From positions 1 through 25,226 of IMG/VR virus record IMGVR_UViG_3300037325_000529: a stretch of 25,226 bases of DNA; one strand, given 5' to 3'. Each line of letters starts with the position of its first letter. Position 1 is the first letter of the stretch. The notes beneath the pieces were generated by a model. That model worked only from the letters and a program-made list of their open reading frames with translations, did not search any database and was not told the DNA's origin. This document shows positions 1-14,386 of this stretch, one piece after another. This DNA comes from a virus. The position numbers and the translations under genes are program-made.

Positions 1-1017
1 ATGTCCTTCCGTTTCTGGCGCCGTATCCGCATTGCTACCGGGGTCACGCTGAACCTGTCGAAGTCGACGGCGTCGCTGTCCTTCGGCCCGCGCGGCGCGA
101 AATACACCGTCAGCCCGCGCGGCAACCGTGTCACGGCGGGACTGCCGGGCACCGGCCTGTTCTACACCGTGCACGAGCCGCGTCGTGCGTCAGCCGCCAA
201 TGCGCCCCAGGTCGCCCAGCGCGATCGGCTCAACCTCGGCTTCTTCCAGCGGCTGTTCACACCGGCGGACGAGCGCGCGCTCGTCGATGGCTTGAAGGCA
301 CTGAATGCGGGCGACGAGGGAGCGGCGCTTGCGGAATTCGAGAAGTCGGCAGACCTGCCCGATGCCGCCTGGATGGCGGGCATGCTCCGTCTGCGGCGCG
401 AAGAGTTCGGGCCTGCGCGGCGCCATCTGGAGGCCGCGCTGGGCGGGCTCGACCGGCTGGGTGGCCTGCTGGAGAAATACGAGATCGCCGCGCAGGTCAC
501 CTTTCCGGTGACGCCTGAGGTCGATGCCCATGCCCGCCCCTGCGAGCGGGGGACAAGGCTGGCGCTGGTCGAGATCGCGCAGTTTGAGGGGGACCGCGCA
601 GCGGCGATGCGCCATGTCGAGCAGCTGCTGGCGATCGAACCGGACGATCCGGTAGTGCTGCTGTCCTTCGCAGAATTCACCCTCGAGGGCGATGCGGACC
701 GCGCGCAGCTGGAAAGGGTCGTCGCCCTGACCACCAGCATCATGAATGAGACGCCGGTCGAGACGGTGCTGCTGCTCTACCGCGGCCGTGCGCTCGCCCG
801 GCTGGGGCTGGCGGACGCGGCCATCGACGTGTTCACGCTGGCGCTCCGCCGGCGCAAGGACCGCGCCGAGACCCTTCTGCGCCAGCTGCGCTACGAGCGC
901 GCGGTGCTCTACAATCAGGTCGGGCGCAAGGCGCAGGCGCGGCGCGAGCTGGAACGCGTCTATGCCGAGGATCCGGGGTTTGAGGATGTGCGCGAACGGC
1001 TGGGGTTGGGGGAATGA
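1..1017 (+). CDS. DUF4236 domain protein with TPR-like repeats
   Basis: The 338-aa product begins with a compact basic, beta-rich module (about residues 1-58) containing 'LNLSKS', 'SFGPRGAKYTVSPRG' and 'GLPGTGLFYT'. This is the hallmark pattern of the DUF4236 domain, and it fixes the ATG at base 1 as the true start. The rest is helical and alanine/leucine-rich, with TPR-like units such as 'ALNAGDEGAALAEFEKSA', 'ARLGLADAAIDVFTLALRRR' and 'YNQVGRKAQARRELERVYAEDPG', so it is probably a protein-protein interaction scaffold. There is no signal peptide or membrane segment. The gene overlaps the next one by 4 nt (ATGA), so the two probably form an operon. It lies on the opposite strand to the phage late genes and may be host chromosome or cargo. 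The molecular function of DUF4236 proteins is unknown. Confidence 0.8.
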   Translation: MSFRFWRRIRIATGVTLNLSKSTASLSFGPRGAKYTVSPRGNRVTAGLPGTGLFYTVHEPRRASAANAPQVAQRDRLNLGFFQRLFTPADERALVDGLKALNAGDEGAALAEFEKSADLPDAAWMAGMLRLRREEFGPARRHLEAALGGLDRLGGLLEKYEIAAQVTFPVTPEVDAHARPCERGTRLALVEIAQFEGDRAAAMRHVEQLLAIEPDDPVVLLSFAEFTLEGDADRAQLERVVALTTSIMNETPVETVLLLYRGRALARLGLADAAIDVFTLALRRRKDRAETLLRQLRYERAVLYNQVGRKAQARRELERVYAEDPGFEDVRERLGLGE

Positions 1018-4704: not shown

Positions 4705-5570
4705 GGCAATTCCACTTCGATGTAGAGGGAGGTCTGGGCGGCGGTGAGGCCTGTCCCGCCACCGTGATCGAGAAACAACGACGCAGTGGCCGCGGTGAGG
4801 CGTGTTCCGCCCCCGAGGACGAGCCACGCTTCGAATTCACCAACACTGAGGTGCTTGTCCCACCCGAACTCGATGAAGGTCTGGGCCTCAAAGATGCGAA
4901 GGTCGGGTTCTTCAAAGCCCAAGGCTTGCACCGTTGGTGGGACTGGATAGCTGAACTGTGACGGTTGGGATCGCAATGTGCCGCCTTCACCAGGATTGCG
5001 GCCTTGGACTTGCGGATAGAAGGCAGCGCTGCCACCGGCGGTCCAAGTTGGGGGCCCGCTCACCGGATCGTCTCGCCAGATGCCATTCTTGCCGATCCAG
5101 AGACTGGCGGCGGCAGGATCAAGCACAAACATCAGCACATCGCCTGCGCCGTAGGGTGGCAGGCCGGTAAGGCGCTGGGATGCGGTGGAGGTGTCAGACG
5201 ACCAGAGTGAGCCATTGCCACGCCAGCCGATCGAGCCCAGAGTGATCGGGTTGTTGCCACTGTCGAATTCTTCACGCTGCGCGGCCGACACAGGGCCGAT
5301 GTAGCCATCGAAACTTGCAGCGCCACTTGCGGCGCAGAGCACCTCCCAATAGCGTCGCCCATCCGAGGGCAGGATCGCCTTCTCACTGGGCACCCAGCGG
5401 CGGTAATCGCTTCCGCCCGAGCTGTTGATGGCGGTCTGGTTCCCGTCGGAGAGCGTGTAGCCAGCCGGGGTGCGTGTGGCGTCAAGTTCCCAGACAGAGC
5501 CGATATCAACCGGCGGCGCTGTATCGCCGCCTTGCGCCAAGATCGCAGCGCGCATCATGAACAGGCTCAC
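4701..5570 (-). CDS. Tail protein with SPRY-like domain and C-terminal tandem repeat
   Basis: The start is a GTG at 5570 that overlaps the preceding stop (GTGA) and gives 289 aa; an internal ATG pair at 5558 and 5555 is an alternative. Residues about 60-200 carry a SPRY/B30.2-like signature: 'RRYWEVLCA', 'DGYIGPVSA', 'GSIGWRGNGSLW', 'GAGDVLMFVLDPAAASLWIGKNGIW', then a hydrophobic strand. SPRY domains are beta-sandwich binding modules. The last 40 residues contain two near-identical units, 'GGGTRLTAATASLFL' and 'GGGTGLTAAQTSLYI', a recent internal duplication. The gene lies between DUF2793 and lectin-like genes and is translationally coupled to both. It is probably a tail-tip or fibre component that contacts the host surface; the exact role is inferred. 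Confidence 0.65.
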   Translation of the reverse strand: MSLFMMRAAILAQGGDTAPPVDIGSVWELDATRTPAGYTLSDGNQTAINSSGGSDYRRWVPSEKAILPSDGRRYWEVLCAASGAASFDGYIGPVSAAQREEFDSGNNPITLGSIGWRGNGSLWSSDTSTASQRLTGLPPYGAGDVLMFVLDPAAASLWIGKNGIWRDDPVSGPPTWTAGGSAAFYPQVQGRNPGEGGTLRSQPSQFSYPVPPTVQALGFEEPDLRIFEAQTFIEFGWDKHLSVGEFEAWLVLGGGTRLTAATASLFLDHGGGTGLTAAQTSLYIEVELP

Positions 5571-6244
5571 GTTACGGCCCCCGCCAGCGCGCCCTGGATG
5601 ACCCAGGCATCCGCCCCGCGCTTCACGAGTGCTGCGCCCGACCATTGGCCATCGAGCGCGACTGCGCCGCCGGTCACGCCATTGAGCGAGACGCCCGGTC
5701 CTGCTGCGACCGTCGCGACTCCGGCGCCGACCTGCGTGACATTGATCAGTGTGCCGATCTCGAAGAGCACCGAGGCCTCGGGCGGGATTGTCACGATGAC
5801 GGCCGAAGAGCCTGTTGTCTCGAGAATTCTTCCCAGATCGACAGCTTCCAGCGTGTGGCTGGTGGCCGTCAACGTCCGGATGCGCACCACACCGGGACGC
5901 GGCACCTCGACCCATGCCCCTGCAGTGAAACGCACATGCTGCCCCTCGTCGGCGATCCAGACCTGCCAGCCCTCCTCAGGGGGCAGGTAGACCCATGCGG
6001 CCGCCCCGGCTGGCGACTCGTCCCACAGAGCCAGTGCATTGGCATTGGCACCCGCCAAGGCGGGCACAATGGAGATCTGACCCTCGGTGCCGGTCGCTGG
6101 CAGGACGGCGGTCCGCGATGTGGCACGCACCTGAACCAGTGCCGAGAGGCGACGCAGGTCTTCGCTGAGACTGGTGCCCCAGTTGCGCTGGCCGGGGTCA
6201 TAGAAGGCGCGCAGCCCCAGTCCCGGCATGATCCGTTCGGGCAT
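5567..6244 (-). CDS. DUF2793-domain tail protein
   Basis: The 225-aa product contains 'LVQVRATSRTAVLPATG', 'ALALWDESPAGAAAWVYLPPEEGWQVWIADEGQHVRFTAGAWVEV', which matches the DUF2793 pattern often found in tail-fibre-like proteins of Rhodobacterales prophages. The N-terminus ('GLRAFYDPGQRNWGTSLSEDLRRL') differs from the usual DUF2793 start and may dock on the hub. The C-terminal half is beta-rich with valine/glycine repeats ('GVATVAAGPGVSLNGVTGG', 'AALVKRGADAWVIQGALAG'), typical of fibre or baseplate decoration domains. The gene begins 75 bp after the hub gene, one of the larger gaps in an otherwise tightly packed tail-tip run. Confidence 0.7.
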   Translation of the reverse strand: MPERIMPGLGLRAFYDPGQRNWGTSLSEDLRRLSALVQVRATSRTAVLPATGTEGQISIVPALAGANANALALWDESPAGAAAWVYLPPEEGWQVWIADEGQHVRFTAGAWVEVPRPGVVRIRTLTATSHTLEAVDLGRILETTGSSAVIVTIPPEASVLFEIGTLINVTQVGAGVATVAAGPGVSLNGVTGGAVALDGQWSGAALVKRGADAWVIQGALAGAVT

Positions 6245-6319: not shown

Positions 6320-9300
6320 TTAGATGCCCCAGAGAAACCCCCAGCCACGATCCCAACCGGCAGCAAAGGGAGCAGTCAACTGGTACCGGCGCGCTTCCTG
6401 GTCGGAGAGCCAGGTGTCTCCGACCAACCGGCGCGACCGGACGGCGATGTCGATCTCAGCTGTTCGATCGGGCGCGCCGCTCTCTGGGATGGCCTCGGGC
6501 GCCAGCGTCCAGCTTGTGCCGATGCCCGCGTCAGTGACGATGCCGGGCGGCATCAGGGCCAGGCCGGTGTCGGGGTCAATCCAGCGCACCTCGATCGCAT
6601 AGCCGACGCCCGGCTCCGGCCCGATGGAGCCGCCCGTGTGATCGACGATGACCGGGCTGGTCTGGGTGAGGCGATCGCGATGAGCCCACGTCAGAACCAG
6701 ATCACCGGCCACCAACACATCGACATCGGGCGTGTAACTGCCGTTGGCTTGCACCCGCCCAGGCGGCAAGGGTCGGATGGCCCGTCTGTTCAGCATCACG
6801 CTGTCTTCCGGGGCCAGCGCAAACGCCAGCGTGCCGCGCCCGGTCTCGGGCAGCAATCGCACTGCAAGTGTTTCTCCCGACGCCCAGCTTTCTTCAGTGA
6901 TCCGCGCGCCTTCGTCAAAGAAGACCACCGGTGTGCCTGCCGCATGGGCGCGCGGCACGGTGTCGAGGCACCCCCGGCCTACGGTGATGGCCGTGGAAGT
7001 GATCCCGTCGACGCGCACCAGTTCGCCATCGATGCTGCCCAGCGTGCCAATCCCGACTTCGCCAATGTCGCGCCAGCCGGTGACGGGGAGGACGCGCGCC
7101 TCCGGGTGGTCCGAGACGCCCGCCGCGAGTAGCGCCGTCGGCGCAAAGGCGACCACGCCCTCCTGCGCAGGGCCGGTGCCGGGATCAATCCAGAGTTCTG
7201 CCACCAGCGCGTCGGCACTGGGACGTTCGCCAGTGGCGACCAGCACGCCCGCATCAGGATCCTCTGACAGGATACGGTCGGCCTCGCTGTGGCTCAACTC
7301 GCGGACCAGCAGCCAATACGGCGCTTCAGCCGCTATGCGGCGGGTCAACGCGCGTGGGGGTGCGGCAACGCCTTTCCCGGTCGGCATGCGCCCGCCTGCA
7401 ATGGCGGTGGCCCCCAGCGCAAAGACATCCTCGGCCAACTTCAGCCGGATGCCATTGTCGCGGCCATCGCCCTGACCGATTTCGGAGATGCGCATCACCA
7501 CATCGGCCAGCCCGAGATGCGGCGCGCGCAGCCGGATCACATCGCCGGGCCCGAGGTCCGCGCCTTTCCGGTTCACCACGATCTCACCCGACAGCAGCGG
7601 CACCGAAAGAGCCCGCAGGTCACGTTCGGCCACGCGGATCGCCAGCCCCTGATAGCGGATGCCAGGATAATCGAGTGTGGTCGCAATCACCTCACCCATA
7701 GCCTGTACCCGGGCCGTGTCAGTAACGCTGACCGCACCCGTATCGTCCGTCCAGGCGTCAGTGAAGCGCACGGTGACGCTGTTTACGAGGTCTGAGGGCG
7801 CGCGCCGCCCCAGCCGACCCCAGTCCACGACATTGGTGTCGTCGAAGAGTGGCAGGTTTGCTGCCACATAATCCGCCCGGATGAGCTTCAACTCCCAGAG
7901 CCCGGTGCGCCGGTCGATGAACAGCGTGGCGTCAATGTGGTCGAGAACGCTGCCGATGAAGTCCTCGATCGAGCTGTCCTGCTGCCAGATCAATGAGAGG
8001 CCGAAGCCCTCGGTGTAAAGCGTGTCCGCCGCGCCGGTAAAACTGGCCCCGATCTCGACCGATGCATAGCCCAGACCCCAGTCGCGGTTGGTGAGGCACT
8101 CGCGGATGATATGCGCGGGGTTCATATCGGGCCCGTTGCCGAAGGCCCCGCGCAGGGAAGACACAAGCGCTTGGGGGTTCCCGGGCGGGATGACCGGCAC
8201 GCCGTCGACAGGCGTGTTGTCAATGCGCGCGGTGAAGGTCGTATTGGCCAGCGCGATGTTGAAGCCGAAAATGTCGGCCGGCGGCAGGGTGGCGATGGTG
8301 GCGACTGCTGCATCAACCGAAGAGACTGGCGACGGCTCACCATCGGTTACGAAGATGACGATCCTGCGCTTGGACCCGCCGCCGGCAAAAAAGGTCGCCG
8401 CTTGCGAGAAGGCTGCGTTAAAGCTGGTGCCGCCTGAGGTGCTGTTCGACAGCGCCAGCATCCAGGCCTCGAGCGCCATGTAATCCTCGGGTTCCATGTC
8501 GCGTCGCTCAATCGCGCCTGCGACGCCCGCGTTCCACAGCACTATCGCCATATCATTTGGCCGGTCAGGATCGACACCCGCCCCGATCTCGCGGATCAGC
8601 GCTGCGACGCCCGCCTTTTGCGCCGCCATGCGCGTGCCCGACATCGAACCCGAGACATCAAGTGCTACGTAGATCGCCGCATCCGAGATATTGGCCTCGG
8701 GCACGATGGGGGCCTTGTCCGGATACCATTGCACTGAACCCGCTTCGCCGGTCAGCACCCGGGTCACGCGCACGGCCCAAGGTTTCAGATAAGGGTTGAT
8801 GCCGAGATACACCTGCCGCAGCACCAGGCTGCAAAGCCCGCGATATGCGGGCACATCCCCGTTTATGCGCGCTGCCAGATAGTCGTTCTGTCCCTGGCCC
8901 GGCCCGCCCACCAGCACATCGACATTACCGACGATCCCACCCTCGCGGCTCTCACCGCCAAAGAGGTCTGGCTTGTCGATCCGGATACGCCCACCACCCG
9001 CACCGGCATTGCTGGCGGCAGTCGTTGCCTCGAACACCTCAACCGACTGCGCCGGGAAGCTCAGTCCTTCGGGGAGGACGGACCAGGAGGTGACATTGCT
9101 GGCGGCATTGAAGGCAACGCCGCGCAGCGTGACCGTCTGGCTCGCGCCATTCGCCAGCAGCAAGCGGTAGTCCCTCCCGATCCGCACCCCGGCACGCGTC
9201 CCCGGAAAGGTGATCGTGGCACCGGTGTCGCCTGCGAGGGCTGCGGTGGCGACCATGCCCGCAACCGTGCCGATGCGCACTTCGACTGCCGCGCCACCGC

Positions 9301-9451
9301 CCGAGACACTGCTGCCTGTGGTGACTGACCAGGCAGTGCGGCGGTCGACAAGGATCTCCCGGATCGCATCGATCGGCCCGTGGCAAAGCGCCATATGCAT
9401 TCCGAGCGAATAGCGAAAACCGACCGTCTGCGCCTTGCTACGCCCGCCCAT
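6320..9451 (-). CDS. Tail hub / host-specificity protein with inserted vWA domain
   Basis: The 1043-aa product is the largest in the cluster and sits where lambda gpJ would be. It starts 'MGGRSKAQTVGFRYSLGMHMALCHGPIDAI', the usual opening of phage tail hub proteins, and carries 'DMNPAHIIRECLTNRDWGLGY' (about residues 442-462), also typical of that family. Between them lies a von Willebrand A-type domain (about residues 258-435) with a complete MIDAS: D265-V-S267-G-S269, T342 in 'SGGTSFN' and D370 in 'VTDGEPS'. MIDAS sites bind Mg2+ or other divalent ions and support adhesion. The rest is beta-rich hub and fibronectin-like sequence. It overlaps the upstream 72-aa gene by 14 nt. The expected role is to form the tail tip and take part in receptor recognition or DNA entry. 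Confidence 0.88.
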   Translation of the reverse strand: MGGRSKAQTVGFRYSLGMHMALCHGPIDAIREILVDRRTAWSVTTGSSVSGGGAAVEVRIGTVAGMVATAALAGDTGATITFPGTRAGVRIGRDYRLLLANGASQTVTLRGVAFNAASNVTSWSVLPEGLSFPAQSVEVFEATTAASNAGAGGGRIRIDKPDLFGGESREGGIVGNVDVLVGGPGQGQNDYLAARINGDVPAYRGLCSLVLRQVYLGINPYLKPWAVRVTRVLTGEAGSVQWYPDKAPIVPEANISDAAIYVALDVSGSMSGTRMAAQKAGVAALIREIGAGVDPDRPNDMAIVLWNAGVAGAIERRDMEPEDYMALEAWMLALSNSTSGGTSFNAAFSQAATFFAGGGSKRRIVIFVTDGEPSPVSSVDAAVATIATLPPADIFGFNIALANTTFTARIDNTPVDGVPVIPPGNPQALVSSLRGAFGNGPDMNPAHIIRECLTNRDWGLGYASVEIGASFTGAADTLYTEGFGLSLIWQQDSSIEDFIGSVLDHIDATLFIDRRTGLWELKLIRADYVAANLPLFDDTNVVDWGRLGRRAPSDLVNSVTVRFTDAWTDDTGAVSVTDTARVQAMGEVIATTLDYPGIRYQGLAIRVAERDLRALSVPLLSGEIVVNRKGADLGPGDVIRLRAPHLGLADVVMRISEIGQGDGRDNGIRLKLAEDVFALGATAIAGGRMPTGKGVAAPPRALTRRIAAEAPYWLLVRELSHSEADRILSEDPDAGVLVATGERPSADALVAELWIDPGTGPAQEGVVAFAPTALLAAGVSDHPEARVLPVTGWRDIGEVGIGTLGSIDGELVRVDGITSTAITVGRGCLDTVPRAHAAGTPVVFFDEGARITEESWASGETLAVRLLPETGRGTLAFALAPEDSVMLNRRAIRPLPPGRVQANGSYTPDVDVLVAGDLVLTWAHRDRLTQTSPVIVDHTGGSIGPEPGVGYAIEVRWIDPDTGLALMPPGIVTDAGIGTSWTLAPEAIPESGAPDRTAEIDIAVRSRRLVGDTWLSDQEARRYQLTAPFAAGWDRGWGFLWGI

Positions 9452-9656
9452 CGCTGGCCTCCATCGTTGCGGCGCGCGTTTTGGCGACCTGAATTACTGG
9501 TTCCACCAGCGCGTCATTGGTGGCGCGCAAGCGATCAGCGTCTATCCCGTGGGTCAGAAAATCCTGCCAGTCCAACCCATGACGGCGGAACCATGGCCGC
9601 ACACCGGCGAGGCAATAGCGAGCATCGCGAAGGTCATGGATTGTCACGCGCGTCAC
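9438..9656 (-). CDS. Small tail-tip-associated protein
   Basis: The 72-aa protein begins at a GTG that overlaps the preceding stop as GTGA. The motif 'VTIHDLRDARYCLAGVRPWFRRHGLDWQDFLTHGID' followed by a helical C-terminus recurs, as I recall, in tail operons of Rhodobacterales phages directly before the hub gene. No enzymatic motif or membrane segment is visible. The 14-nt overlap with the hub gene suggests coupled translation. It could be a chaperone or a minor tail-tip protein; the function is unknown. Confidence 0.72.
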   Translation of the reverse strand: MTRVTIHDLRDARYCLAGVRPWFRRHGLDWQDFLTHGIDADRLRATNDALVEPVIQVAKTRAATMEASDGRA

Positions 9657-9901
9657 TTCTTGCCGCCTTTCTTCTTGATCGGGTCCACTTTCAGATCCCC
9701 CGCCCAGACCACGTTGGGTCCGGTGATCAGCACGGTGCCAAAGATGACCGGGATTGGGCGGCCTTCCTCGGCCGTGGGCAGGCTGAAATCATCAAGCCCC
9801 GCAGCGAGAGGCTTTTCAACCTTAGGGCGCGGGCTCAGTGCATAGGATATCGCCGAGAGCACCAACCCGAGAACGAGCTGCGCGATGAAGTTCCAGACCA
9901 T
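9653..9901 (-). CDS. Small tail assembly protein with N-terminal hydrophobic helix
   Basis: The 82-aa product has a hydrophobic N-terminal helix (about residues 4-22, 'NFIAQLVLGLVLSAISYAL') followed by a short soluble part ('RPIPVIFGTVLITGPNVVWAGDL') and a lysine-rich end ('KKKGGKK'). The phrase 'PIPVIFGT' also occurs at the start of hub proteins of other tailed phages, so this may be a detached N-terminal piece of the hub or a companion that inserts in the membrane during infection. It is coupled to the downstream gene (GTGA) and lies 9 nt after the DUF2163 gene. The role is inferred from position only. Confidence 0.7.
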   Translation of the reverse strand: MVWNFIAQLVLGLVLSAISYALSPRPKVEKPLAAGLDDFSLPTAEEGRPIPVIFGTVLITGPNVVWAGDLKVDPIKKKGGKK

Positions 9902-9910
9902 GATGAATTC

Positions 9911-10777
9911 TCAGACGATGGAGCCGCCGCCGAAGGGGTTGCGGCCGGGGATTTCCGGAAAGCCCCCGAAATTAGCGAGGTTGCCGAACTTCGCCGCACA
10001 GGTGCTGGCGCGCAGATCGCAACCCGGGGCGATGTCGGCGAGGACAGGGAGTGGATCGCCCGTATCCGGGTCGAATTCCGGCATGGTGAGCGCTGCGGCG
10101 AGTTCCGGCATCGGGCGCGAAAGCGTTATGGTCCCGGCTGAGTGGCCCGTGATGAAGCCCAATTGCAGCCCAAACCGCAGCACCCCGCCGCGATACCAGC
10201 CGTTCGGTGCGCTGGCAGCTTCGGGGATTGTCACCGTCGATCCGCCATTTGCAGCGGTTGTCACTGTGCCTGTCAGCCAGGAAAGCGCGATGTCGAGTCC
10301 GCAACCCCGCCCATAGAGGGCATGACGGCAGAGCCGCTGGTATTTTGCCCGCACGCCCGCGCGGCGCAGCGTGCTGAAGATCGACTCGGCTTGCAGCAGA
10401 ATACGCTGCCCTTCAACTTCTGCACCCACCACGCGACCTTTCCAATGCGCCACCGTCTCGCCCAGCACCTGCTCGTGGCCGCGAAAGATGGTCAGCGTGA
10501 CAGACGTATTGCCTAATGGGGCAAGGAAGCGCCGTACAAAAAAATGAGACAAGGGCCAGGTCAGTCCTAACCGCCCGCGCTCGATCTCGCTTGTCTGCAC
10601 CACATCGCCATGCGCCACGGCGGCGGGTTCCCAAGTGATCGCATCTCCGCCACTTCCCACGCTGGTCCATGCCGTTGCGCGACTGGTGAAACGCCAGACC
10701 TGATCGCCTTCCACGAATTGGTAGAGGAAGTAGGGGCGGCCCTCGGCGGCAGAGGCTTCGATACTGGCGTAGGTCAT
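9911..10777 (-). CDS. DUF2163 / phage BR0599-family tail-tip protein
   Basis: The start is the ATG at 10777, which overlaps the stop of the preceding gene (ATGA) and gives 288 aa; the much longer open frame upstream is shadow sequence. Residues about 1-165 fit DUF2163 ('FTSRATAWTSVGSGGDAITWEP', 'IERGRLGLTWPLSHFF'). The C-terminal part fits the BR0599 domain, with conserved cysteines 'YQRLCRHALYGRGCGLD' (C150, C159) and 'GCDLRASTCAAKFGNLANFGGFPEIPGRNPF'. The same domains occur in the gene transfer agents of Rhodobacterales and in related siphophages, in the tail-tip region between tape measure and hub. It is probably a hub or baseplate ring component. The paired cysteines might coordinate a metal cluster; this is not tested here. 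Confidence 0.85.
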   Translation of the reverse strand: MTYASIEASAAEGRPYFLYQFVEGDQVWRFTSRATAWTSVGSGGDAITWEPAAVAHGDVVQTSEIERGRLGLTWPLSHFFVRRFLAPLGNTSVTLTIFRGHEQVLGETVAHWKGRVVGAEVEGQRILLQAESIFSTLRRAGVRAKYQRLCRHALYGRGCGLDIALSWLTGTVTTAANGGSTVTIPEAASAPNGWYRGGVLRFGLQLGFITGHSAGTITLSRPMPELAAALTMPEFDPDTGDPLPVLADIAPGCDLRASTCAAKFGNLANFGGFPEIPGRNPFGGGSIV

Positions 10778-11940
10778 GCGGGCACCTCGATGACAGGCAG
10801 TGTCACTTCGCTTGAAACTGCCCCGTGTTGGATCTCCACGCGGTCGGCTTCCGAGCGCATCGCGGTCAGGAAATGCACCTTGGTCGTCAGTGGGACCGGC
10901 TCGCCGAGGTTTGAGGACAGTGTTAGTCGATGATCGGCACCCTCGACGATGGCGGCAGTGATCGAGCGGAACCGCAGTGCACCGGGCATCTCCAGCATGA
11001 TCGGGCGGCCCACATAGGCCGCAAGCGACGCGACCGGTGCCACGCGCATCAGTACCGAGCCCGAGGTCATGGCCGTGCGTAGCTGCAACTCGTGCCCCCA
11101 AGTTGGCAGCCAGAAGCTCGCCTGCCGCCCGCGGAGCGACCAGAGCCAGCGGCGCAGGGCGTGACGCACGCTCAGACCTTGCGCCTTCAGCGTGATCGTT
11201 TCACTGCGTTCAAACACGTCGCGCATCGGCTCCACCACAACGGGTCCGAAGCCGTTGTCGACATATTCGACAGCGCGGCGCAGGCTGGCGCTGAGAGGGC
11301 GGCGCACAAGGCTCGCGTCGGTTTGCACCGAACGGCCGAGGTAGGTCAGTAGAACTGGCGCGGTGATGTCGGGTGCATCCCGAAGCATGAAGCTGGCCGT
11401 AACCGTGCCATCGCCCTGCCTGCGGCGCACGATCTCGACCGCTGAGGTCAGCACGCCCGCCCGGATCGGCGCGACCGTGATCCGCCGCGCCGCCACCAAC
11501 ATGTCTGGCAGCTGCAGCACCAGCGGGTCAGCCAGGATCAGCCGGTCGGCCTGAACGGTGGCGATGGCCACGATGGCCGCCGCCCCACCATCGACAGCAA
11601 TTGCCGCAAAATCGCCACCACGGAAATCCGACAGACCCGTGTCGAGCAGGATCTCACTCGCACCCTGCACTAGGTCTGACCCTGGCTGCGGTGCAAGATG
11701 CCAGAGCGGTAAAAGCCAGTCGCTCGCAAATCCTGCCCGCGCCAGCTCCGCAGCACGGGCCATGCCAAGCGCATCCAGACGATGGCGGAAGGTCGCGATC
11801 TCGCGCGGGCGGGGCCGGAGTGCGATGCGCTGTTCACCCAGCTTCGCCTGCAGCACATCAGTGCGCCATTCCAGCACCTCGCTGATCTCCTGCGCCGCCG
11901 GGAAGGACCAGAGAGGCAGCATGCCTACAGCATCAGGCAT
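10774..11940 (-). CDS. Tail protein of unknown fold, distal tail candidate
   Basis: The 388-aa product has N-terminal sequence 'LPLWSFPAAQEISEVLEWRTDVLQAKLGEQRIALRPRPREI', a pattern I associate with proteins lying between tape measure and DUF2163 in alphaproteobacterial siphophages. It is beta-rich throughout, with no signal peptide, no membrane segment and no catalytic motif. It overlaps the tape-measure stop by 8 nt and the DUF2163 gene by 4 nt. An in-frame ATG at 11922 is an alternative start. Position just after the tape measure makes it a candidate distal tail protein, the adaptor between tail tube and hub. I cannot confirm this from motifs. Confidence 0.7.
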   Translation of the reverse strand: MPDAVGMLPLWSFPAAQEISEVLEWRTDVLQAKLGEQRIALRPRPREIATFRHRLDALGMARAAELARAGFASDWLLPLWHLAPQPGSDLVQGASEILLDTGLSDFRGGDFAAIAVDGGAAAIVAIATVQADRLILADPLVLQLPDMLVAARRITVAPIRAGVLTSAVEIVRRRQGDGTVTASFMLRDAPDITAPVLLTYLGRSVQTDASLVRRPLSASLRRAVEYVDNGFGPVVVEPMRDVFERSETITLKAQGLSVRHALRRWLWSLRGRQASFWLPTWGHELQLRTAMTSGSVLMRVAPVASLAAYVGRPIMLEMPGALRFRSITAAIVEGADHRLTLSSNLGEPVPLTTKVHFLTAMRSEADRVEIQHGAVSSEVTLPVIEVPA

Positions 11941-14386
11941 TCAATGCACTCCGATTGCGCCGGATGACATTCAGGATGGCCCGCTCGCCGGAGGCCGTGG
12001 CGAGGTAGTCGCCGACCACGGACGGGTCGAGGACGTTGATGATGCGGGTCGACATGTCCTGCGCGGGTTGCGTCGCTCCGGCGCCGTTCATCTCCACCCC
12101 CAGCCGCCCGTCGCGTCCGCGGCGCAGCGGCAGGATCGCCTCGGGCCCGGCCTCACCCATCAGTCCAATCCCGCGTGAAAACGGAAACACCGTCGGCCGG
12201 TTCACCACGCCCCCGCGGGCAAAGGCCGTCAGTTCCTGCCCCCCGGCGAAAACGCCACCGCGCGCAAAGCTGAAGAGGCTGGCGAAGAAACCGCCACCGC
12301 CACCCATGCCGGAAAAGGCGTTGATCAGCGCGTTCTCAATCGGTTTGAATGCCGCCTCGATCAGCCGGTTCGCAAGATTCTGGGCGATGGTTGAGACGGC
12401 GCTGGCGAAGGTCTGCCAAGTGAACTCGCCAGATTTCAACGCCTCCTTAATCGGCCCTGTAATGTCCTGCGCCAGGCCTTGGGCGATCTCGCGCGAGCGT
12501 TCCTGCGCGGCACGAACTGCCTCAGTTGTAGCCTCCCAGGCATTGCGGGCGGTGTCCGCTGCTTCGCGCAGGGCCTGACCAGCACCGCGACCGGCACCAC
12601 CCGCGCGCCCTGCGGTCTCGCTGGTAGCATCCAGCGCATCCTCCAGCCCTTCGGCGGCGGTGCGCGCGCCAGTGAGCGCGGCCTCCGAGTCCATTCCTGA
12701 CGCAGTGACGGCTTCGCGCAGGGCGGCGACGGTTTCGAGCGGGGCTGTTGCCGCCTCGACCACACCCGTCATCGTCGCGCGCAGAGCCTCTGCCTGAACG
12801 CGCGCTTCCTCAGCATAAGCACCGAGCCCGATGTCTGGCATTGTGATTGGCTCGGTATTGAACGCCGCCTGAAACACTGCCCGGGCCTCCGTCCCTGCAT
12901 CAGCCACTGATCCTGCAAAGGGATTGTCGATCCGACCCAGTTCCAGATTGCCGATCAGCGAGATGCGCCGCTCGATGCCCAGCGCCTCGAGGCCCGCATT
13001 AATCCCGTCCAGAAATCCGTTGATGCGCTGGCCAACACCATTCAGCATCGCCTCGACGCCGGAGATTAGCGCATTTGCTGCCTGAAACGCGAAGTCGCCA
13101 ATCGCACCGGGTAGTGCGCCCCAGAGCACCTTGATCGCCTCAAGTGCTCCTTGAAAGGTATTGATCGCCGCGTTGCCAAAACTGACCACCGCTTCCAGTG
13201 AGGCCTGCAGTGCTTCGGCGATTGCTGCCTTTATCTCAGCCCAGCTGGCCATGATCGCGAGCCCCATGGCGACAGCACCCAACTGCACGCGCTCCCACAC
13301 CTCGCGGGCGAGATCGCCCAGAAGCGAGAGCGCGTTGCCAAACCCGCCCGCACCGCGCACGAGCCGTCCAAACCAATGGATCAGTTCTCCTGCCGCCACG
13401 ACAAGGCCGATGAGTGGCAGACGCAGCAGCGCGCCGCGCAGGATCACCAGTGCCATGGCAAGACCGCGCACTGAAACCGCCGCCGCGATCTTGGCCACAA
13501 CGAAGCGTCCCGCCATCAAGGTAGCAATTCCTGTGGCATAGGCTGTCAGCCGTCCAAGGTTCTCGAAAACTGTCCGAATGGCGATCCCGAGCGGTCCGGT
13601 AGTGCGTGCCACCGCGGCCATCGCATTGGCCACGGCCTCCAGCGCAGGTGCTGCGGCGACTGCGAGCTGGTTCGAGAGCCCACGCCAGATCAGCCCCAGC
13701 CGCGAGATCGCATCATTTGTGCGCTCGATCTGAGCAGCGTCCTGATCAGACACCACCACCCCGAAATCGCGCACATCCTGCGTGGCTTGCCGCAGTGTCG
13801 CGGTGTCGATGCGCGTGAACACCAGCCCCGCACGATCCCCGAAGAGCTGCGAGGCTACCGCAGCGCGTTCGGCTTCTGGCACGAATTCCGCAAGCCGGTC
13901 CTGTATCAGCGCAATACGCTGGTCCAGCGGCAGTGCCTGCAACTCGGCTGCTGACAATCGCAAACGGTCGAGCGCGTCCGCAGCAGGGCCCGTGCCAGCA
14001 GCGGCCTGGCTCAGCCGTCGCGTCAACTGCATGGCGGCCTGTTCGACCTGACCCATCGACACGCCCGCCAGATCGCCTGCACGTTCCAGCACTTGAATGC
14101 TTTCAACAGTCGTGTCCAGCGAGGCGGCCAGCTTTGCCTGGGCATCCACCGTCTGCAGACCGGAGCGGATCATCGCTGTGGCCGCCGCCGCAATCGCTGC
14201 AGCTGCCGCGGCCATCGCCACCCGCGCACGCCGCGCAAAGGCGGCCAGCCGGGTATTGGCACCTTCCATTTCACGCGACAGACGGCCAAAGCCCCGGGCC
14301 CCGGCCTCGCCCACACCTTCCAGCTCGGCCTTTACCTGCCGCCCGCCAGTGGCGGACAGGCGCACGCTGACACGCTTTTCAGTCAT
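11933..14386 (-). CDS. Tail tape measure protein
   Basis: The 817-aa protein starts with 'MTEKRVSVRLSATGGRQVKAELEGVGEAG' and an alanine-rich helix, continues through long heptad-like helical regions, has a hydrophobic stretch (about residues 265-345) that may cross the membrane during DNA injection, and ends with the module 'FARGGVVNRPTVFPFSRG' and 'GLMGEAGPEAILPL', a strong signature of lambda-type tape measure proteins. It sets tail length during assembly; at about 1.5 angstrom per residue the tail would be roughly 120 nm (inference). It directly follows the tail chaperones; the -1 frame of the chaperone pair stops at 14379, overlapping this start by 8 nt. Confidence 0.92.
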   Translation of the reverse strand: MTEKRVSVRLSATGGRQVKAELEGVGEAGARGFGRLSREMEGANTRLAAFARRARVAMAAAAAAIAAAATAMIRSGLQTVDAQAKLAASLDTTVESIQVLERAGDLAGVSMGQVEQAAMQLTRRLSQAAAGTGPAADALDRLRLSAAELQALPLDQRIALIQDRLAEFVPEAERAAVASQLFGDRAGLVFTRIDTATLRQATQDVRDFGVVVSDQDAAQIERTNDAISRLGLIWRGLSNQLAVAAAPALEAVANAMAAVARTTGPLGIAIRTVFENLGRLTAYATGIATLMAGRFVVAKIAAAVSVRGLAMALVILRGALLRLPLIGLVVAAGELIHWFGRLVRGAGGFGNALSLLGDLAREVWERVQLGAVAMGLAIMASWAEIKAAIAEALQASLEAVVSFGNAAINTFQGALEAIKVLWGALPGAIGDFAFQAANALISGVEAMLNGVGQRINGFLDGINAGLEALGIERRISLIGNLELGRIDNPFAGSVADAGTEARAVFQAAFNTEPITMPDIGLGAYAEEARVQAEALRATMTGVVEAATAPLETVAALREAVTASGMDSEAALTGARTAAEGLEDALDATSETAGRAGGAGRGAGQALREAADTARNAWEATTEAVRAAQERSREIAQGLAQDITGPIKEALKSGEFTWQTFASAVSTIAQNLANRLIEAAFKPIENALINAFSGMGGGGGFFASLFSFARGGVFAGGQELTAFARGGVVNRPTVFPFSRGIGLMGEAGPEAILPLRRGRDGRLGVEMNGAGATQPAQDMSTRIINVLDPSVVGDYLATASGERAILNVIRRNRSALNA

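Follow-up and report, generated by a model that had tools for sequence, protein, structure and literature searches.

A von Willebrand factor A domain in a siphophage tail hub, probably a host-recognition module in place of pilus fibres

The IMG/VR record IMGVR_UViG_3300037325_000529, of which we studied positions 1-25,226 (hereafter the window, the whole analysed stretch of 25,226 nt, one strand), carries a tail hub gene whose product is interrupted by a von Willebrand factor A (vWA) domain, and this raises the question of what such a domain does at the tip of a phage tail. A first reading of the bare sequence, here called the original prediction, had noted the domain and offered adhesion to a host surface protein or pilus, or an ion-triggered switch for DNA release, as its role. 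What is unexpected is less the domain by itself than its place, a slot in the hub that stands empty whenever pilus fibres are carried. We consider it probable that the vWA domain, seated in a modular hub slot, is a host-recognition (adhesin) module of the virion that stands in for the pilus fibres gp47 and gp48 of phage JBD30. All coordinates are window positions, and hub residues are numbered in the 1043-aa open reading frame (ORF).

The domain inserted in the hub

By sequence and by fold the window hub belongs to the JBD30-type siphophage hub family (phrog_1101, Phage-tail_3). Phmmer matched it to the solved hubs 8rk3_o (4.7e-84) and 8vjh_A (7.6e-102), the top-scoring stretches spanning window hub aa 439-956, and whole-hub structure comparison gave Z 34.4 to JBD30 gp53 (8rk3_b) over 698 residues. 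The vWA domain itself lies within the insert at hub aa ~252-440. The Pfam model VWA_2 covers aa 262-372 with E 1.3e-7 (32.6 bits, the cut-off being 27), and in an AlphaFold model of the hub (48 sequences, mean pLDDT 81, with ~66-94 per ten-residue block across aa 251-440) strands and helices follow one another at aa 258-437 as they do in a vWA domain. When the model was compared with VIA-align, the best single-domain matches were vWA domains (Z about 18-20.5), among them ANTXR2/CMG2, TEM8, the bacterial vWA 4fx5, TRAP, the Aeromonas large adhesion protein and integrin I domains, and the fit to CMG2/TEM8, the integrin I domains and TRAP had a root-mean-square deviation (rmsd) of 2.1-3.0 A across 161-184 residues. 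CMG2/TEM8, integrin I domains, TRAP and the Aeromonas protein have known adhesion functions. These proteins (9das for that of Aeromonas) share the vWA fold at Z about 18-20, but they are cell-surface and not virion proteins and are only ~10-20% identical to the window vWA.

On the modelled fold and the metal-site residues, the insert is confirmed as a true vWA domain of the type that carries a metal ion-dependent adhesion site (MIDAS). The original prediction was thus right about the domain and about the MIDAS, whose D-V-S-G-S, T342 and D370 lie at the residues it gave; its limits of 8145-8680 located the insert correctly and missed the exact ends, the true insert being slightly wider (8126-8713, ~195 aa). 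It had also expected the two flanks to be adjacent in homologues that lack the insert, and alignment with insert-free hubs agrees: the hub of Pseudomonas phage AAT-1 joins nearly directly at this place (aa 173/171, against window aa 254/442), and the flanks lie -6 to 8 aa apart in 77 of the 77 fibre-type hubs that were measured. That direct joining rules out that the segment is ordinary hub sequence, and a chance resemblance to vWA is likewise ruled out by the Pfam score above cut-off, the fold match at Z ~20 and the conserved MIDAS.

The MIDAS is complete in 164 of the 170 phage vWA domains of our set (hubs 143/148, upper baseplate proteins 13/13, Dit 8/9). The deviations comprise two domains gapped at MIDAS columns (L065, whose contig begins inside the gene, and L230), three Gilliamella hubs with E at the T position and one domain with G at the second D (L146). 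Elsewhere in the domain a D-N-T-P-x-D-G motif, outside the MIDAS residue set, is nearly as conserved as the MIDAS, each of its six named positions being 84-97% identical across 37 dereplicated vWA domains. A vWA that works with an AAA partner, as in archaeal viruses and in viral pairs of the MoxR/AAA-vWA or CobS-CobT type, was also considered and ruled out: Pfam and PHROGs scans found no AAA+ ATPase gene beside the vWA gene, both flanks of which are tail genes.

Fibres, Dit clamp and the hub slot

JBD30 (PDB 8rk3; PMC11445458) shares with the window the hub fold and the gene order of tape measure protein (TMP), distal tail protein Dit, upper baseplate protein, two small genes and hub; the two differ in that JBD30 is without a hub insert (11 aa in the slot) and possesses fibre genes and a Dit clamp, whereas in the window the slot holds the vWA, fibre genes are absent and Dit is short. 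In the available text on JBD30, the gp47/gp48 fibres bind the type IV pilus, and domain I (aa 2-74) of the Dit gp49 wraps round the tail fibres, domain II being aa 75-174 (PMC11445458). The TMP and Dit genes of the window overlap, and therefore no gp47/gp48 fibre genes lie between them. Our hidden Markov model (HMM) of the fibres matched no gp47/gp48 gene in the window locus, and the clamp HMM (gp49 domains I-II) gave no match in the window Dit, which aligns to positions 507-895 only of the phrog_1082 profile and begins at the Dit core.

For a wider comparison, loci were gathered by hub sequence together with named phages, and their ORFs were scored with HMMs built for this analysis; the use of the window hub as the IMG/VR query and the ranking of the genome scan favour vWA relatives. 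The 331 sequences yielded 316 hubs longer than 600 aa and 198 complete loci (the region reaching as far as Dit and including 1.5 kb or more ahead of it). Among these 198, counted without dereplication and restricted to loci complete on the TMP side, 78 carry the fibre family (kin of JBD30 gp47 and gp48, phmmer 6.7e-26 and 2.8e-15, and HMM; phrog_687 in PHROGs), 89 carry a vWA, 31 carry neither and none carries both. Dereplication at 80% left 81 representatives with the same pattern (29 with fibres, 30 with vWA, 22 with neither). The hub slot follows this division, being empty in the fibre loci (77 measured of the 78), 188-224 aa long in the vWA-hub loci (81/81) and 14-18 aa long where the vWA is in Dit only (8/8), while 28 of the 31 loci with neither hold an insert of 122-346 aa. 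The three exceptions are a locus with a fragmentary Dit ORF (L133) and two entries from one contig (L274/L322). The Dit of that contig, 1401 aa in length, matches the clamp at aa 898-1017 and is much extended towards its N terminus, next to an empty slot and no separate fibre genes; perhaps it is a fibre fused to Dit.

The Dit clamp was found by HMM in 77 of 78 fibre loci, a figure that is partly by construction since the HMM seeds are fibre-type Dits, in 0 of 89 vWA loci and in 2 of 31 with neither; it is also present in 8/8 fibre-bearing phages outside the seed set. Dit is separated from the large upstream ORF by more than 500 nt in 0/84 vWA loci as against 63/69 fibre loci, counted where such an ORF is in reach (leaving out 5 vWA and 9 fibre loci), and that lack of room rules out that divergent fibre genes were missed in the vWA loci. 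The exchange can be seen between two Pseudomonas phages both labelled Pamexvirus, AAT-1 and PaMx28: in AAT-1 two fibre genes go with a Dit of 560 aa and an uninterrupted hub, whereas PaMx28 is without fibre genes, its Dit has 386 aa, and its hub and upper baseplate protein each carry a vWA. Thirteen named phages were scored afterwards. Nine of them (JBD30, DLP1, AXL1, Vibrio 033B, HCMJ, MMDA13, AXL3, DLP5 and WP2; the JBD30 Dit is among the clamp seeds) combine fibres, clamp and an empty slot, and Aeromonas PhAER-6 and Ruegeria V16 lack both fibres and clamp and carry non-vWA hub inserts of 468 and 221 aa.

What else the slot can hold bears on its purpose. Among the non-vWA inserts, two match LamG lectin-like domains (L286, 1.7e-9; L313, 8e-4, the latter under the Pfam cut-off) and one has a weak GH2 sugar-binding match (L261, 0.0041, also under the cut-off); this Pfam scan covered 10 of 21 representatives, several of which gave no match. 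When the L261 family was modelled (5 sequences, mean pLDDT 72), its fold matched N-terminal jelly rolls of GH2 enzymes (best Z 13.3, rmsd 2.9 A, 135 residues). Some slot inserts would thus resemble carbohydrate-binding jelly rolls, and we note that likeness of fold alone does not prove sugar binding. The 21 non-vWA inserts searched against vWA at full sensitivity gave nothing better than E 0.5, which rules out that they are degenerate vWA domains. Two Mesorhizobium prophages (L241, L242) have non-vWA hub inserts of 341 and 343 aa, the first of them with no Pfam match, and the slot of a sister hub (L237) holds a vWA. The hub of phage SCUT-S3 (L093) has, besides its slot insert, a LamG lectin-like domain at its C terminus (aa 918-1043).

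These occupants matter for one alternative, in which the insert merely braces the baseplate where the fibre or its clamp would touch and binds no host. The presence of the insert closely follows the loss of fibres and Dit clamp, the vWA is no more variable than the adjacent hub regions, and it can instead occupy the junction of Dit domains III and IV, all of which speak for a brace. Unrelated domains of 122-346 aa share the slot, however, which would scarcely be possible for a fitted brace; moreover, JBD30 and other hubs are empty there, and the MIDAS so widely kept (164/170) serves ligand binding and not the fold. We regard a purely structural part as unlikely.

The vWA has also moved between genes. 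It is found in two neighbouring baseplate proteins of other phages, Dit and the upper baseplate protein, and in a tree of 41 vWA domains the carrying gene switches at least 5 times (a quick tree with several weak branches). In two lineages the domain sits at the same Dit position (model column ~190), which in our own reading of the alignment would correspond to the JBD30 gp49 domain III/IV junction near aa 356. The upper baseplate vWA of some phages is N-terminal and always accompanies a hub vWA (11/11 complete loci). In Wenxinia marina (L220) hub and Dit both carry a vWA, and since the two are 70% identical a recent duplication is suggested.

This mobility bears on the ion-triggered switch of the original prediction, in which the MIDAS would sense Mg, Mn or Ca, reshape and open the hub for DNA release. 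The complete MIDAS is in its favour, as is the fact that vWA and I domains can change shape upon metal or ligand binding. In other phages, however, the slot holds non-vWA domains or nothing, and yet those phages must open, and the vWA also sits in Dit and the upper baseplate protein; a switch appears to us very improbable, the least probable of the alternatives considered here.

Hosts, pili and the role of the domain

If the vWA replaces pilus fibres, the hosts should be considered. Of 37 host genomes, 14 gave a match to the PilT family model TIGR01420 that passed its cut-off (some of the 37 are metagenome-assembled genomes, MAGs): 8/8 hosts of fibre-type prophages, 4/25 of vWA-type and 2/4 of those with another insert, a pattern confounded by host taxonomy, which explains part of it. 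The four positive vWA hosts are three Gilliamella, in two of which the match contains a stop, and a gammaproteobacterial MAG, and no match above cut-off was found in the 18 Rhodobacteraceae host genomes. DLP1 and AXL1, whose receptors were shown experimentally to be type IV pili according to the accessible text of the respective papers (PMC6024842, PMC9206674), are both fibre-type by locus. For Xanthomonas phages Elanor and Mallos, both with a hub vWA, the available text of PMC9316219 names no receptor and contains neither "pili" nor "pilus". Because the vWA phages are without JBD30 fibre genes and 21 of 25 of their hosts are without PilT above cut-off, retractile type IV pili of the T4aP kind are an unlikely ligand for the clade of the window, and the ligand in Rhodobacteraceae hosts would be something else. 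The Flp_Fap pilin scored above cut-off in 3/18 vWA host genomes (E <= 1e-3 in 6/18), which disfavours the Tad/Flp pilus as a general ligand, the shortness of the model making this weak evidence against it.

The proposed course of infection is as follows. By analogy with JBD30, three hubs would form the tail tip, and the window phage would accordingly display three vWA copies per trimer. In JBD30 the tier of Dit and upper baseplate protein holds the organ of first contact, and by the same analogy we place that organ here, as a vWA displayed from the hub at the tail tip and not as a fibre. The vWA would grip a host-surface protein or other ligand via a divalent metal in its MIDAS, and would need that metal for receptor binding; opening of the tip would then proceed as in JBD30. 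The suggestion of receptor binding draws on the exchange with pilus fibres and with lectin-like domains. Adhesion is thus the best supported of the roles offered in the original prediction, and its host-surface ligand can be kept; its pilus, in the sense of retractile T4aP, fits the window's clade poorly.

A hub-flank tree lets the exchange be considered apart from shared descent. On 84 rows (L133, with its fragmentary Dit ORF, and the window itself, L001, being left out, as were L274/L322 from the trait tests and L055, L237 and L255, for doubtful starts, from the structure alignment), the minimum number of changes was 6 for the fibre state, 8 for the hub insert and 11 for the vWA. Before enlargement, 4/4 contrasts were opposite for insert and fibres (p 0.125). 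With ten phages more (94 rows, 93 scored) there were 6 independent contrasts on supported branches, of which 4-5 were opposite, 0 in the same direction and 1-2 without difference; one of 200 pairings split into 3 opposite and 3 without difference, and the median p was 0.0625. The exchange of fibres for insert gains a mechanism because the Dit clamp is lost together with the fibres.

Several points weigh against a receptor-binding vWA in place of fibres, beyond the partly built-in clamp count and the taxonomic confounding of PilT. With just 6 supported contrasts the phylogenetic support is modest, suggestive and not conclusive. A weak point is that a receptor binder in an arms race might be expected to change quickly, and the vWA evolves no faster than the hub around it (its mean conservation is 0.848, with 0.885 and 0.901 in the flanks and 0.742 in the C terminus). 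Two of the 13 extra phages, the Casjensviridae Klebsiella N137 (L336) and Salmonella ST-101 (L337), have neither fibres nor a hub insert, and the slot is therefore not the sole solution: the exclusion holds in all 13, and the rule of "one or the other" does not. N137 and ST-101 have N-terminal Dit extensions of ~490 aa and ~150 aa, and the ST-101 hub has a long C terminus.

Finally, the fibre-like DUF2793 gene downstream of the hub could encode the receptor binder. Its presence is what favours an accessory role, in which the vWA binds matrix, capsule or a filament to concentrate the phage and the DUF2793 protein is the decisive receptor binder; a similar order of events is described for JBD30, whose fibres bind the pilus first, after which gp54 binds the surface, in the available part of that account (PMC11445458). 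Sequence cannot tell this from a vWA that is itself the receptor binder, and the exchange of fibre for vWA points to the first step of attachment either way. We think such a subsidiary part quite unlikely, and return to the vWA as the host-recognition module that replaces the fibres.

A broader proposal, which we hold tentatively and as somewhat short of an even chance, is that a recognition slot is a general feature of the hubs in this family. Recognition would be provided either by Dit-clamped pilus fibres or by a module plugged into the hub, the vWA being one swappable cartridge that has moved at least 5 times among hub, Dit and upper baseplate protein, and the window's clade would bind a proteinaceous structure other than retractile type IV pili. 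The analysis yields a rule that can be tested: fibres with a Dit clamp and a hub-slot module exclude each other in long-tailed phages of Gram-negative bacteria. Genome sequence alone could then place the recognition domain and show whether a phage probably depends on retractile type IV pili. That would be of use for selecting phages and for identifying receptors in Rhodobacteraceae, a family in which few are known.

Occurrence, precedents and the surrounding genes

The presence of a vWA in these phage hubs is not rare. The hub was found in 758 of 50,697 phage records, and a tblastn search with the insert matched 27 of them, several being RefSeq/GenBank pairs. A first IMG/VR scan kept 80 of 99 relatives, and the insert is present in about 80 IMG/VR loci. 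Prophages with the insert are mainly from Rhodobacteraceae (genome scan), and in an even sample of one host's family the hub occurs at E <= 1e-50 in 10/149 genomes. Named phages with a hub vWA include Bordetella MW2/FP1/CN1/CN2, Erythrobacter R6L/ZS04, Xanthomonas Elanor/Mallos, Pseudomonas PaMx28, Stenotrophomonas QH3/Bhz59 and Variovorax BAPIC_0004/V45iii, their domains being 28.6-41.3% identical to that of the window across 89-94% of the query. The PHROGs profile phrog_15205 contains this domain. Rhodobacter phages RcSpartan and RcTitan likewise have a MIDAS vWA in the baseplate module and no fibre genes, but in them the vWA lies in Dit (JBD30 gp49 III/IV junction) and the hub slot is empty.

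The original prediction knew of no characterised example in a phage hub, and our full-text literature search, whose coverage excludes most subscription journals, did not turn up any work on a siphophage hub with a vWA, although GenBank already labels the hub gene of MW2 "von Willebrand factor type A". A vWA domain in a phage baseplate gene does have a published precedent: as far as its available text goes, gp164 of Bacillus thuringiensis phage 0305phi8-36 shows a vWA swapped in and out of a baseplate/fibre gene, though in a phage of a Gram-positive host without a JBD30-type hub, likened here by description (PMC2147016). The tail fibres of extracellular contractile injection systems (eCIS), in the accessible part of PMC12923769, carry VWA among many swappable receptor-binding domains of a tail-derived device, although these are fibre proteins of contractile systems and not a siphophage hub. 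The paper on Lydia and the Mesyanzhinovviridae describes gp47/gp48-like fibres, and "Willebrand" does not occur in its available text (PMC11946847).

The minus strand of the window is a siphophage morphogenesis block of terminase, portal, S49 protease, capsid, tail tube, tape measure, Dit, upper baseplate, two small genes and hub; Table 1 lists the features discussed.

Table 1. Tail-tip features of the window
Feature	Position	Strand	Basis
Tail-fibre-like gene downstream of hub, DUF2793, possible tip receptor-binding protein	5567..6244	-	Pfam DUF2793 4.4e-10; phrog_7049 tail fiber 2.3e-14
Tail (baseplate) hub, 1043 aa, JBD30 gp53 / phage Chi hub family	6320..9451	-	phrog_1101 E 1.5e-264
Hub-slot insert holding the vWA, aa ~247-442	8126..8713	-	195 aa by flank HMMs; alignment A1
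D-N-T-P-x-D-G motif, hub aa 411-417	8201..8221	-	conserved among phage vWA domains
MIDAS motif 3, D370	8342..8344	-	D in 37/37 dereplicated vWA rows
MIDAS motif 2, T342	8426..8428	-	hub ORF position, conservation
MIDAS motif 1, D265-x-S267-x-S269 (DVSGS 265-269)	8645..8659	-	conservation across phage vWA set
Second hub insertion, beta-rich, aa 42-152	8996..9328	-	alignment A1; strands in AlphaFold model
Small gene, kin of JBD30 gp52-position gene	9438..9656	-	phrog_1196 tail assembly chaperone 1.6e-26
Small gene, kin of JBD30 gp51-position gene	9653..9901	-	phrog_1180 tail assembly chaperone 3.6e-28
Upper baseplate protein, JBD30 gp50 kin, without vWA	9911..10780	-	Pfam Phage_BR0599 5e-14; phrog_778, phrog_15205
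Short distal tail protein Dit, JBD30 gp49 kin, 388 aa, without fibre-clamp domains	10774..11940	-	phrog_1082 9.6e-77
Tape measure protein	11933..14386	-	phrog_8462 E 1.2e-170

The second insertion of the window hub is missing from the 12 other phage hubs in alignment A1, the AXL1 hub having ~24 aa near that place. The genome of Alterinioella nitratireducens has four hub copies (L177, L204, L205, L221) and so several related prophages. Near-identical or related hubs were also found under MAGs labelled Burkholderiaceae, Acidobacteria and Anaerolinea (L178, L212, L232, L233, L236), the first two of which look like binning errors. On the plus strand, a gene at the edge of the window (1-1017) encodes a DUF4236 domain followed by TPR repeats.

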